From contig NZ_CP162023.1 in assembly GCF_041320275.1 (NCBI RefSeq), positions 2,976,001 through 3,040,000 on the forward strand: a stretch of DNA of 64,000 bases, read 5' to 3'. This DNA comes from Mumia sp. Pv4-285 (GTDB lineage: Bacteria > Actinomycetota > Actinomycetes > Propionibacteriales > Nocardioidaceae). The stretch's first letter is position 1; each line of letters opens with the position of its first letter. Shown in pieces: positions 38,000 to 61,943 of the stretch. The notes beneath the pieces were generated by a model. It saw only the letters and a list, made by a program, of their open reading frames with translations, searched no databases and had not been told where the DNA came from. The position numbers were made by a program, and so were the translations under genes.

Positions 38000-38136
38000 G
38001 CTGGATACATCCCTTCAGCGGCAGGAACGTGCCGCACGATCCGAGTGAAGTGGAGACGGCCCAGGGTCGGGCTTGCGCTTATTGTTGCCGAGGAAGACTT
38101 ATTCGTCCATGGGTTGGCGCGAACCGTTATCGAACC

Positions 38137-59112: not shown

Positions 59113-60705
59113 TCAGTCGCGGTGGCGGCGCAGACCGTACGTGAACGCGTCGAGCAGCGCCTCCCACGAGGCCTCGATGATGTTGTGGCCGACCCCGACC
59201 GTCGTCCAGGTGTCCTGGCCGTCGGTCGTGCCGATCATGACTCTGATGCGGGCGTCGGTGCCGCCCGACTCGTTGAGGATCCGCACCCGGTAGTCGTTGA
59301 GCCCGAACGTCTCCACGTCCGGGAACGCCCGATCGATCGCCTGCCGCAGCGCGTGGTCGAGCGCGGAGACAGGGCCGTTGCCCTCCCCGGTCACCACGTA
59401 GCGCCGGCCGCCGGCCACGATCTTCAGCGTCGCCTCCGACTGCGCCTCCTCGCCTGCCGCGTGGCTCGACTCGGTGATCACCCGCCAGGACTCGACGTCG
59501 AAGTACGACGGCCGCTCACCCTCCACCATCTCGGCGAGGAGGAGCTCGAACGACGCGTCGGCGGCCTCGAACGTGTAGCCGGCCTGCTCGCGCTCCTTGA
59601 CGACCTCGGTCACGCGTCCGAGCGTCGCGGCGTCGCCGCTGAGGTCGAAGCCGAGCTCCTTGCCCTTGAGCTCGATCGTGGCGCGACCCGCCATCTCCGA
59701 CACGAGCAGGCGCATGTCGTTGCCGACCAGCTCGGGGTCGATGTGCTGGTAGAGGTCGGGATCGACGCGGATCGCGCTCGCGTGCAGCCCGGCCTTGTGC
59801 GCGAACGCGGACACGCCCGTGTACGGCTGCCGTGCCGCCGGCGGGTAGTTGGTGACCTCGGCGATCGCGTGCGCGATTCGGCTGGCCTCGCGCAGCGCAC
59901 CCGTCGGCACGACCTTCTGGCCGAGCTTCAGCTCGAGGTTCGCGACGCACGTGATCAGGTCGGCGTTGCCGGTGCGCTCGCCGTACCCGTTGACGCACCC
60001 CTGGAGGTGCGTCGCACCGGCCTGGACCGCAGCGACGGAGTTGGCGACCGCGCAGCCGGTGTCGTTGTGCGCGTGGATGCCGAGTCGCGCGCCGGTCGAG
60101 GCGGCGACGTCGGCGACGATCTCGCCGACCCAGTGCGGGAGCATCCCACCGTTCGTGTCGCACAGGATCACGACCTCGGCGCCCGCCTCGGCAGCCGTCC
60201 GCACCACCTCGAGCGCGTACGCCCGGTTGCGCCGGAAGCCGTCGAAGAAGTGCTCGCAGTCGACGAAGACGCGCTGCCCGTGCGCGCGCAGGTGCTGCAC
60301 GGTGTCGCGGACCATCGCGAGGTTCTCGTCGAGCGTGGTTCGGAGCGCGAGCTCGACGTGGCGGTCGTGGCTCTTGGCGACCAGGGTCACGACCGACGCG
60401 CCGGAGTCGCGCAGCGCGGCGACAAGGGGGTCGTCGGCCGCGCCGGAGCCCGCACGCCGCGTCGCGCCGAAGGCTGCGAGCGTCGCGTGCTTGAGGACCA
60501 GCTCGTCCTTCGCGCGGGCGAAGAACTCGGTGTCCTTCGGGTTCGAACCGGGCCACCCGCCCTCGATGTAGCCGACGCCGAGCTCGTCGAGGTGGCGCGA
60601 GATCACCAGCTTGTCGGCGACGGAGAGGTTCAACCCCTCCTGCTGCGCACCGTCGCGCAGCGTCGTGTCGTACACGTGGAAGGTCGGGTCCTGGTCCGTG
60701 GTCAT
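59113..60705 (-). CDS. cimA: Citramalate synthase CimA
   Basis: CimA joins pyruvate and acetyl-CoA to (R)-citramalate, the threonine-independent entry to isoleucine. The 530-residue protein starts MTTDQDPTFHVYDTTLRDGAQQEG, the metal/arginine motif, and continues with EGGWPGSNPKD, HAHNDTGCAVANS and GYGERTGNADL, then a C-terminal LeuA-type allosteric domain. This length and the GWPGSNPKD block distinguish it from 2-isopropylmalate synthase and homocitrate synthase. ATG 60705 follows AGGAGAA. A complete branched-chain attenuator lies upstream. Confidence 0.95.
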   Translation of the reverse strand: MTTDQDPTFHVYDTTLRDGAQQEGLNLSVADKLVISRHLDELGVGYIEGGWPGSNPKDTEFFARAKDELVLKHATLAAFGATRRAGSGAADDPLVAALRDSGASVVTLVAKSHDRHVELALRTTLDENLAMVRDTVQHLRAHGQRVFVDCEHFFDGFRRNRAYALEVVRTAAEAGAEVVILCDTNGGMLPHWVGEIVADVAASTGARLGIHAHNDTGCAVANSVAAVQAGATHLQGCVNGYGERTGNADLITCVANLELKLGQKVVPTGALREASRIAHAIAEVTNYPPAARQPYTGVSAFAHKAGLHASAIRVDPDLYQHIDPELVGNDMRLLVSEMAGRATIELKGKELGFDLSGDAATLGRVTEVVKEREQAGYTFEAADASFELLLAEMVEGERPSYFDVESWRVITESSHAAGEEAQSEATLKIVAGGRRYVVTGEGNGPVSALDHALRQAIDRAFPDVETFGLNDYRVRILNESGGTDARIRVMIGTTDGQDTWTTVGVGHNIIEASWEALLDAFTYGLRRHRD

Positions 60706-60765
60706 CGTCGTTCTCCTGCTCAGGTGCGGCCGGCGGGTCCTCCCGAACACAAGGCTGTGCCCATC

Positions 60766-60827
60766 AAAAAAGCCCCTCGGGGTACGAGAGGCTGGCGCGT
60801 CGGACCCGGGAGGTGGGTCAGACGCGC
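60766..60827 (-). terminator. Attenuator of cimA: leader hairpin and intrinsic terminator
   Basis: Reading the minus strand, a strong first hairpin (60795-60827; arms GCGCGTC/GACGCGC with inner GACCC/GGGTC) covers the end of the leader peptide. It is followed by a 9-bp terminator stem AGCCTCTCG/CGAGGGGCT with loop TACCC (60771-60793) and a run of six T (60766-60771). cimA starts 61 bases later. The alternative antiterminator pairing is not obvious by eye. Confidence 0.8.
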
Positions 60828-60859
60828 TGACTAATGACGACGCCGGTCACGCGATGCAT
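60818..60859 (-). CDS. Branched-chain leader peptide MHRVTGVVISQRV
   Basis: A 13-codon ORF has five Val/Ile codons among its last ten, including Val-Val-Ile in a row. It ends in the first hairpin of the attenuator. A TAGAGT -10 hexamer is six bases before its ATG, with no ribosome site. Starvation for valine or isoleucine would stall the ribosome and prevent termination upstream of cimA. Peptide function itself is purely regulatory. Confidence 0.75.
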   Translation of the reverse strand: MHRVTGVVISQRV

Positions 60860-60861
60860 AC

Positions 60862-60879
60862 GGCCACTCTAGACTGGCC
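60862..60879. promoter_or_regulatory. Palindrome with two overlapping divergent -10 elements
   Basis: GGCCACTCTAGACTGGCC is palindromic in 16 of 18 positions. Its minus strand holds TAGAGT (60866-60871), six bases before the cimA leader ATG. Its plus strand holds TAGACT (60870-60875), nine bases before the ATG of the oxidoreductase at 60885. The two -10 hexamers share two bases, so both promoters cannot be occupied at once. Confidence 0.65.
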
Positions 60880-60884
60880 GGACC

Positions 60885-61943
60885 ATGACTTCCAGCGCAG
60901 CCTCGGCCCCCACGACCCATCACAGCGTCCTCCTGGCCAGCCGGCCGCACGGCGAACCGACACCCGAGAACTTCACGATCGAGCGCACCCCGGTCCCCGA
61001 GCCGGGGCCGGACGAGGTGCTCCTGCGGACCATCTACCTCTCCCTCGACCCCTACATGCGCGGGCGCATGTCGGACGCGGAGTCGTACGACGAGCCCGTC
61101 CCCGTCGGGGGCGTGATGGTCGGCGGCACCGTCTCGGAGGTGGTCGCCTCGAACAGCGACCTCGTCACGGTCGGCGACTTCGTCATCGCCTTCACCGGCT
61201 GGCAGGAGTACGCCGTCGCGCCGGCGAACGCCGTACGCCGACTCGACCCGTCGCGCGCGCCGCTGTCGACCGCGCTCGGCGTGCTCGGCATGCCGGGCTT
61301 CACCGCGTACGCCGGTCTGCTCGAGATCGGTCGTCCGCAGCCGTCCGAGACGGTCGTCGTGGCGGCGGCTGCCGGCCCGGTCGGCTCCGCGGTCGGCCAG
61401 ATCGCCCGCATCAAGGGCGCTCGCGCCGTCGGCATCGCCGGTGGGCCGGAGAAGGTCCGCTACGTCAAGGAAGAGCTCGGGTTCGACGTCGCGCTCGACC
61501 ACCGCTCCCCCGACTTCGTCGACGAGCTCGCAGCGGCCACACCCGACGGGATCGACGTCTACTTCGAGAACGTCGGCGGCGCGGTCTTCGACGCCGTCCT
61601 CCCCCGGGTGAACGAGTTCGGTCGCATCCCACTGTGCGGCCTGATCGCGCAGTACAACGCCACCGCGCTGCCCGAGGGTCCGGACCGCTCCCCCGTCCTG
61701 CTGCGCCGCATCCTCACGCGCAGCCTCACCGTCCGCGGCTTCATCCAGCGCGAGTTCGTCAAGGCCCACTACCGGCAGTTCCAGGAGGACATGGCCGGCT
61801 GGATCGCCGACGGACGCGTCCGCTACCGCGAAGACGTCGTCGACGGCCTCGACAAGGCGCCGGAGGCGTTCCTCGGCATGCTTCGTGGCACGAACTTCGG
61901 CAAGCTCGTCGTGCAGGTCGGCCCGGACCCGACGAGGCCGTGA
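60885..61943 (+). CDS. NADPH-dependent MDR-type oxidoreductase (prostaglandin/2-alkenal reductase family)
   Basis: This 352-residue medium-chain dehydrogenase/reductase lacks zinc motifs. YLSLDPYMRGRM is the hallmark of the leukotriene B4/2-alkenal reductase group. The cofactor domain has AAAGPVGSAVGQIARIKGARAVG and the GGP(E)K NADPH phosphate loop, then DVYFENVGG. It should reduce alpha,beta-unsaturated carbonyls. Its ATG has no ribosome site but a -10 hexamer nine bases away. The next gene overlaps its stop (GTGA). Confidence 0.93.
   Translation: MTSSAASAPTTHHSVLLASRPHGEPTPENFTIERTPVPEPGPDEVLLRTIYLSLDPYMRGRMSDAESYDEPVPVGGVMVGGTVSEVVASNSDLVTVGDFVIAFTGWQEYAVAPANAVRRLDPSRAPLSTALGVLGMPGFTAYAGLLEIGRPQPSETVVVAAAAGPVGSAVGQIARIKGARAVGIAGGPEKVRYVKEELGFDVALDHRSPDFVDELAAATPDGIDVYFENVGGAVFDAVLPRVNEFGRIPLCGLIAQYNATALPEGPDRSPVLLRRILTRSLTVRGFIQREFVKAHYRQFQEDMAGWIADGRVRYREDVVDGLDKAPEAFLGMLRGTNFGKLVVQVGPDPTRP

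Follow-up and report, generated by a model that had tools for sequence, protein, structure and literature searches.

Attenuators in ilvB leaders are known in Actinobacteria from the available text of four papers (PMC1262725; PMC8079986; PMC13236596; PMC10272879), and the original prediction, which named attenuation of ilvBN or leuA, agrees with this literature (e.g. PMC1262725). For the ilvB leader of Streptomyces coelicolor, changes to the candidate codons are reported, in the available part of PMC1262725, to have had no effect, which speaks against codon reading in that Streptomyces leader. For ilvB1 of Mycobacterium tuberculosis, the available part of PMC13236596 describes a loss of induction upon codon replacement, which speaks for codon reading; there, a ribosome at the stop codon masks a structure that would oppose the terminator, similar to the scheme we propose below.

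Here we describe a leader of related plan upstream of cimA, the gene for citramalate synthase. CimA opens a threonine-independent route to isoleucine, and we take SCO5529 to be a cimA gene. A cimA leader that reads isoleucine codons would let bacteria set the citramalate route apart from the supply of leucine and valine. We found no mention of cimA in the available text of PMC1262725, PMC10272879 or PMC13236596, no occurrence of "cimA" or "citramalate" in the main text of PMC8079986, and no report of a cimA leader or attenuator among the open-access papers listed by our searches. Because attenuators are known for ilvB and none was found for cimA, we consider cimA a new target, with isoleucine as the conserved control residue.

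Anatomy and conservation of the cimA leader

The window, a 64,000-nucleotide stretch of a 4.65-Mb chromosome, carries the leader on its minus strand at 60766..60859, and both the sequence and these coordinates match the original prediction exactly. The features of the locus are:

60866..60871, minus strand: -10 element TAGAGT, 6 nt upstream of the leader ATG; [TC]AnnnT is conserved in relatives
60818..60859, minus strand: leader-peptide ORF, probably leaderless, 13 codons, encoding MHRVTGVVISQRV and a stop codon; an equivalent ORF is present in 83/85 upstream regions
60833..60841, minus strand: control codons GTC GTC ATT (Val-Val-Ile), beginning 14, 11 and 8 nt before H1
60795..60827, minus strand: hairpin H1 (GCGCGTC...GACGCGC), from folding and covariation
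60771..60793, minus strand: intrinsic terminator stem-loop, flush against H1, from folding, covariation and a terminator scan
60766..60771, minus strand: six-T run of the terminator, from the sequence
60713..60717, minus strand: AGGAG, likely the ribosome-binding site of cimA, judged from the sequence
59113..60705, minus strand: cimA, citramalate synthase, 530 aa; TIGR00977 at 627.4 bits, cut-off 450, in agreement with the gene originally named

The leader coding sequence (60859-60818, minus strand) reads ATGCATCGCGTGACCGGCGTCGTCATTAGTCAGCGCGTCTGA and yields MHRVTGVVISQRV; its final codons and stop codon lie within the 5' arm of H1. The predicted Val-Val-Ile leader ending in a hairpin, followed by a terminator with six T, is present. 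The terminator is the only terminator-like site in 60600-61000, where shuffled sequences gave 0.1 +/- 0.3. ATT is rare in the window: in five long ORFs it encodes just 1 of the 78 isoleucines. The fold of the 131-nt region consists of both hairpins (z -2.1; 6/200 shuffles equally stable), and since the fold of a single sequence is modest evidence, the case rests on conservation. A consensus sigma-70 scan of the locus returned no promoters and a clear -35 element was absent. No Rfam riboswitch or T-box matched the leader at gathering level; the sole match of that level in the window is an msiK RNA (RF01747) at 38003-38061 on the minus strand, with 49.2 bits against a cut-off of 33.

As the original prediction had proposed, conservation was checked and a covariance model built on the upstream regions of cimA relatives. 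Of at least 586 such relatives on genome contigs the 80 best were used, together with the cimA of six same-genus genomes, the window's own included; one region (L005) duplicated another (L087) and was removed, leaving 85 upstream regions. The short ORF, H1, the flush terminator and the T run were found in 83 of the 85, the window's included. In the two regions that lack the arrangement (L043 and L045, both Nocardioides) the promoter region adjoins cimA itself. The element is also absent from a genome of the same family that lies outside the 85 (G203), where TAGACT is followed after 7 nt by the cimA GTG (locus L255). From these three absences we consider the element dispensable. In L043 and L255 a -10-like box stands 9 and 7 nt, respectively, upstream of the cimA start, an arrangement that looks like the outcome of a deletion of the switch.

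Both stems covary. We aligned 48 of 54 non-redundant leaders, with the long-H1 leaders L042, L051, L054, L061, L062 and L071 left out; 94.9% of cells were paired and 11 of 18 pairs had changed on both sides. The covariation score was 0.347, compared with 0.174 in shuffled alignments, and none of 500 shuffles scored as high; slid alignments reached at most 0.13. The count of further pair types, one of five covariation measures, was unexceptional in these leaders (49/500 shuffles).

The spacing of the parts is tightly kept. H1 itself ranges from 23 to 77 nt among the 83 leaders, while the terminator always follows H1 at a distance of -1 to 2 nt (83/83) and the first Ile, Leu or Val codon begins 11-17 nt 5' of H1, again in 83/83. 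The stop codon is a TAG whose G forms the first base of H1 in 39 leaders, and in the remaining 44 it starts 7-23 nt inside H1. The pattern [TC]AnnnT occurs 6-7 nt before a start codon in 70/83 leaders, compared with 10/832 other ATG or GTG triplets in the same upstream regions. This placement suggests that most leaders of the cimA family are probably leaderless, and together with the TAGAGT it supports the leaderless start originally suspected for the window.

The control codons are dominated by isoleucine. An Ile codon lies in the control window of 83/83 leaders, and the Ile, Leu and Val residues there number 196, 21 and 20. Among 199 Ile codons of the leaders 100 are ATT, compared with only 6 of 1360 in the cimA coding sequences; Fisher p values for such codon comparisons are overstated because the sequences are related, although the contrast itself is not inflated. 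The control runs in the six genomes of the genus are VVI, VII, LFI, LVI, VII and LII, and the wider set has mostly Ile-Ile-Ile or Ile-Ile. Judged from these counts, the conserved control residue is isoleucine. The run has drifted within the genus, as the six Mumia genomes show, which makes the window's Val codons a local variant; of the Val-Val-Ile signal originally proposed the isoleucine part holds generally, and Val-Val-Ile is one variant found in the genus. Given the run in the window, valine may be read there too.

The covariance model was also run on 296 genomes drawn evenly from the phylum, and it matched 76 of them at E 0.01 or better. cimA is present in 228 of the 296 (218 above the family cut-off). 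The element precedes cimA in 15 of the 16 same-class genomes that have the gene, the window's own included, with G203 as the exception, and seven more cimA leaders of the same plan all come from one more distant family. The majority of distant cimA genes in the draw had no model match, and at the draw's 30 highest-scoring TIGR00977 cimA loci, all of them distant and three (L237, L241, L253) with inexact positions, no such leader was seen.

Sister leaders at other genes

The draw contained 88 model matches, of which 73 were assigned to a gene: 22 to cimA (own included), 41 to ilvB, 5 to leuA, 3 to leuB and 2 to leuS. Assignment of ilvB was by tblastn, and the leuA, 3-isopropylmalate dehydrogenase and leuS families scored above their cut-offs. 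The 15 matches without an assigned gene include several weak ones within unrelated genes. For the ilvB codon comparison 38 of 47 rows were used; L133, L173, L202 and L218 were dropped for a misassigned H1 or frame, and L217 and L219-L222 as unparsed. At least two Ile codons were found in 20/21 cimA leaders compared with 0/38 ilvB leaders, and Leu codons in 35/38 ilvB leaders compared with 2/21 cimA leaders. The leuA leaders had Leu only (5/5). Elsewhere in the phylum, leaders built on this plan therefore stand before ilvB (Leu/Val/Ile) and leuA (Leu), each with codons that correspond to the product. Such a leader also lies upstream of ilvB in the window's own genome (L218, G000:C1, about 3053541, minus strand): a leaderless MRNLLLVRH ending at a stop codon, two tandem hairpins and a T run. 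If the length-switch reading set out below is true, many Actinomycetota would use one device to regulate cimA (Ile), ilvB (Leu/Val/Ile) and leuA (Leu).

Several further observations concern these sister loci. Like leaders precede 3-isopropylmalate dehydrogenase genes (L169, L175, L186; Val-Ile-Ile codons) and leuS (L199, L214; Leu codons) in other Actinomycetota. The ilvB leaders of the phylum frequently use GTA (39), CTT (23) and ATT (13), which are probably rare codons in GC-rich genomes. Upstream of leuA in the window's own genome (L002, about 620-670) a short ORF, MYYARLLLRCRGEGSL ending at a stop codon, resembles the LEU-element leaders described for actinobacterial leuA; no two-hairpin leader was noticed by eye in that region. 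One weak match (L189), GFVAIA and a stop codon followed by a hairpin and terminator, lies before an isocitrate-lyase-like gene and may be chance.

Proposed attenuation scheme and its alternatives

Taken together, we conclude that a leader-peptide-dependent, translation-dependent transcription attenuator likely controls cimA, with a probability of roughly 0.8. The original prediction spoke of a complete attenuator: a branched-chain attenuator is well supported by the 83/85 conservation, the covariation and the product-matched codons, whereas a classical antiterminator was not found and the control codons lie 5' of H1. We infer the following steps from anatomy and conservation. Transcription would begin at or beside the leader ATG or GTG, and the leader would be translated without a Shine-Dalgarno site. 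The attenuator would sense charged tRNA-Ile, and perhaps valine or leucine too in this genus. When isoleucine is ample, the ribosome would reach the stop codon at or in the 5' arm of H1, the terminator would form, and transcription would end before cimA. When isoleucine is short, the ribosome would stall on the control codons just 5' of H1, H1 would fold, and polymerase would read through into cimA.

We searched for an antiterminator by constrained folding in three ribosome states, using 82/83 leaders (L086 had no parsed codon run). The mean probability of H1 was 0.94 with no ribosome, 0.90 with a stall at the start of the control run and 0.002 with a ribosome at the stop codon, and that of the terminator at equilibrium was at least 0.99 in all three states, so that both hairpins coexist. 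This equilibrium measure does not discriminate in Escherichia coli controls either (0.74-1.0), and we therefore relied on a nascent-RNA measure, which asks if the terminator's 5' arm is already held in other pairing at a point where the 3' arm has still to be transcribed; it was applied to 54 non-redundant leaders with the ribosome footprint blocked, in a pseudoknot-free model. In the E. coli thr, leu, trp, ilv and his leaders, pairing of the 5' arm was 0.51-0.86 when stalled versus 0.01-0.32 at the stop codon (5/5). In the cimA leaders the best stalled pairing had a median of 0.35 and exceeded 0.5 in 11/54; some leader starts (e.g. L049, L052, L066) were set too far upstream in both the constrained and the nascent folding, which inflates the pairing values of those leaders. 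Medians were 0.06 for a stall at the first codon, 0.34 at the last codon and 0.30 at the stop codon. An antiterminator switch, taken as a rise of more than 0.3 on stalling, appeared in only 3/54 leaders, and in 0/54 at the first codon, versus 5/5 in E. coli; the change was reversed, with higher pairing at the stop, in 14/54.

Pairing was also examined by duplex tests. The leader with the 5' arm of H1 paired with the 3' arm of the terminator less than shuffled sequences did, and pairing of the leader with either terminator arm was below the shuffled level. The summed duplex energy between the H1 loop and the terminator 3' arm was -154.7 versus -143.1 +/- 10.2 when shuffled, with 24/200 shuffles as low; the window's loop, ACCTCCC, can pair with the 3' arm, no better than shuffled loops. 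A classical antiterminator as the default reading was rejected on the nascent folding with its E. coli controls and on these duplex tests. In the trp type the control codons lie inside the first strand of the upstream hairpin, whereas here they are 5' of H1 in 83/83. H1 thus survives an early stall and is lost once the leader has been translated to its end, opposite to what happens in the trp scheme; with the ribosome halted at the last Ile codon, the outermost H1 pairs are lost. A response of the useful sign requires that H1 oppose termination.

How H1 might do so is suggested by distances along the RNA. The folded H1 could bring a stalled ribosome close to RNA polymerase and leave the flush terminator hairpin without room, in which case ribosome and H1 would replace an antiterminator RNA; a ribosome at the stop codon would open H1, leaving enough RNA for termination. 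In the available text of PMC11711091, a single-molecule study, 28 nt from the P site to the polymerase active site corresponds to no intervening mRNA, and the collided complex forms at 37 nt or less. A review states from modelling, in the available text of PMC7858274, that the collided ribosome-polymerase complex is incompatible with termination hairpins. The spacer was computed as the number of RNA nucleotides between the P site of the ribosome and a point seven bases into the T run. In the 83 leaders it came to 20-29 nt (median 23; below 28 in 82/83) for a ribosome halted at the first control codon while both hairpins are formed, and to 30-64 nt for a ribosome at the stop codon, where H1 is open and only the terminator is formed, in a post hoc fit that borrows E. 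coli distances and ignores helix widths. The five E. coli leaders gave 51-120 nt stalled and 33-73 nt at the stop codon; in these leaders, termination takes place while the ribosome is at the latter position. Under a length switch the size of H1 should be immaterial once it is folded, which agrees with the range of 23-77 nt.

A stricter computation lets only RNA outside the ribosome footprint (A site +13) fold. For a stall at the first codon the spacer stayed below 28 nt in 82/83 (hairpin -21.7 kcal/mol; 82 and 67 of 83 with footprints of +11 and +15) and for the first Ile codon in 78/83, but for the last Ile codon in only 31/83 (hairpin -7.2 kcal/mol). At the stop codon, 23/83 fell under 28 nt if weak residual pairing (median -1.6 kcal/mol) was counted. 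In the window, a stall at the lone Ile codon at -8 covers the outer pairs of H1 and gives a spacer of 34 nt versus 36 at the stop codon, and with the ribosome at the first Val codon the spacer is 24 nt (footprint +13), so that it separates the states there only for stalls at the first Val. The stricter computation thus implies that stalls must come early in the run. On this modelling, early stalls are offered by Ile-Ile-Ile leaders and, in this genus, only by way of valine or leucine. Because the two states are less distinct for last-Ile stalls and in the window, attenuation without antiterminator RNA, with H1 as a length switch, has dropped somewhat in our estimate and is doubtful. If true, the collision complex of ribosome and polymerase, known from structures, would have a regulatory role in nature, and the mechanism of the ilvB leaders of Actinobacteria, which has been called unclear, might be explained as well. 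The leader family, compact, mostly leaderless and widespread, raises the question of whether a stalled ribosome can itself prevent a terminator from forming.

There are two other accounts of the antitermination step. In a classical trp-type attenuator a stall would favor an antiterminator hairpin over the terminator by pairing that the folding missed, for example a pseudoknot of the H1 loop with the terminator 3' arm. Leader, control codons and terminator are all in place for it, ilvB-II shares the two-hairpin layout with a proposed pairing of loop and 3' arm (available text of PMC10272879), the ACCTCCC loop can pair with the 3' arm, if no better than shuffled loops, and in 11/54 leaders some stall leaves more than half of the nascent 5' arm paired. 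Mostly, however, a ribosome at the stop codon leaves the arm paired to as great an extent, with a rise on stalling of more than 0.3 in 3/54 and a reversal in 14/54, while the same computation separates the states in 5/5 E. coli leaders. Loop pairing was matched by 24/200 shuffles, leader pairing with the terminator arms fell below shuffled, and with codons 5' of H1 a first-codon stall would preserve the 1:2 hairpin rather than break it, making this account unlikely. H1 alone might instead be the antiterminator, its flush fold hindering closure of the terminator in the polymerase exit channel with no nearby ribosome needed, and a ribosome at the stop codon would restore termination by removing H1. 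The gap of -1 to 2 nt in 83/83 fits this, as does an H1 probability of 0.94 free, 0.90 stalled and 0.002 at the stop (82/83 leaders). The two hairpins nevertheless coexist at equilibrium (terminator at least 0.99, by a measure that does not discriminate in E. coli either, 0.74-1.0). We know of no terminator blocked by a flush upstream hairpin, and we regard this account as improbable to the same degree.

Other explanations dispense with the codons. A protein or RNA could bind the conserved GCGCG hairpin, or the terminated RNA of ~94 nt could be a small RNA. The GCGCG is kept while the leader stop precedes H1 in some lineages and falls inside it in others, the codon changes in the S. coelicolor ilvB leader reportedly had no effect (available text of PMC1262725), and there is a weak likeness to 6C RNA at 30.4 bits. 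Such a structure would leave the product-matched codons and the enrichment of ATT without reason, and the 6C score is below the cut-off of 47, which no site in the genome reached; we think it quite unlikely. A chance small ORF before the terminator of some other transcription would agree with a single sequence that folds only modestly better than shuffles (z -2.1), but not with 83/85 regions, two covarying stems, fixed spacings and codons matched to the product, and it is very improbable indeed. The reading we prefer remains an attenuator in which the leader codons would be read by a ribosome.

Comparison with known leaders

6C RNA is formed by two tandem GC-rich hairpins in actinomycetes. The cimA leader (30.4 bits) resembles 6C RNA (RF01066) in that layout; identity was rejected, with a gathering cut-off of 47 and no match over it in the genome.

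The closest relatives are leaders of ilvB. The actinobacterial ilvB leaders of Seliverstov et al. (2005; available text of PMC1262725) likewise encode a leader peptide with branched-chain residues, whose reading frame stops at or within a hairpin that is followed by a terminator, and ilvL of Streptomyces lividans TK24 is reported as leaderless (available text of PMC8079986), like the cimA leader. What sets the cimA leader apart from them is the gene it serves and isoleucine as its conserved control residue. Corynebacterium ilvB-II (Narunsky et al. 2023; available text of PMC10272879) also has two hairpins, the second a terminator, and a branched-chain uORF, and its combination of a P1 hairpin, a P2 terminator with covariation and a uORF was found in the cimA leaders. 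According to the same text, the ilvB-II gene is ilvB rather than cimA, its uORF covers most of P1, whereas here the last base of the stop codon is the first base of H1 in 39/83, and an antiterminator formed by the P1 loop is proposed; in the cimA leaders, pairing of the H1 loop was matched by 24/200 shuffles. The M. tuberculosis ilvB1 attenuator stalls at branched-chain codons, as in the scheme proposed for cimA; unlike the cimA leader, it is 166 nt long, is not leaderless, serves ilvB1 and is described with a mutually exclusive antiterminator (available text of PMC13236596).

The E. coli thr, leu, trp, ilv and his leaders share with the cimA leader a leader peptide with control codons and an intrinsic terminator. 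They differ in that an antiterminator is detectable in 5/5 and that their stalled spacers are long, at 51-120 nt. Measured against the trp type, the cimA leader departs in two tested features, the antiterminator and the placement of the codons, and agrees in having a leader ORF with control codons (predicted to be translated), codons matched to the product and an intrinsic terminator before the gene. We conclude that it probably works like an attenuator.
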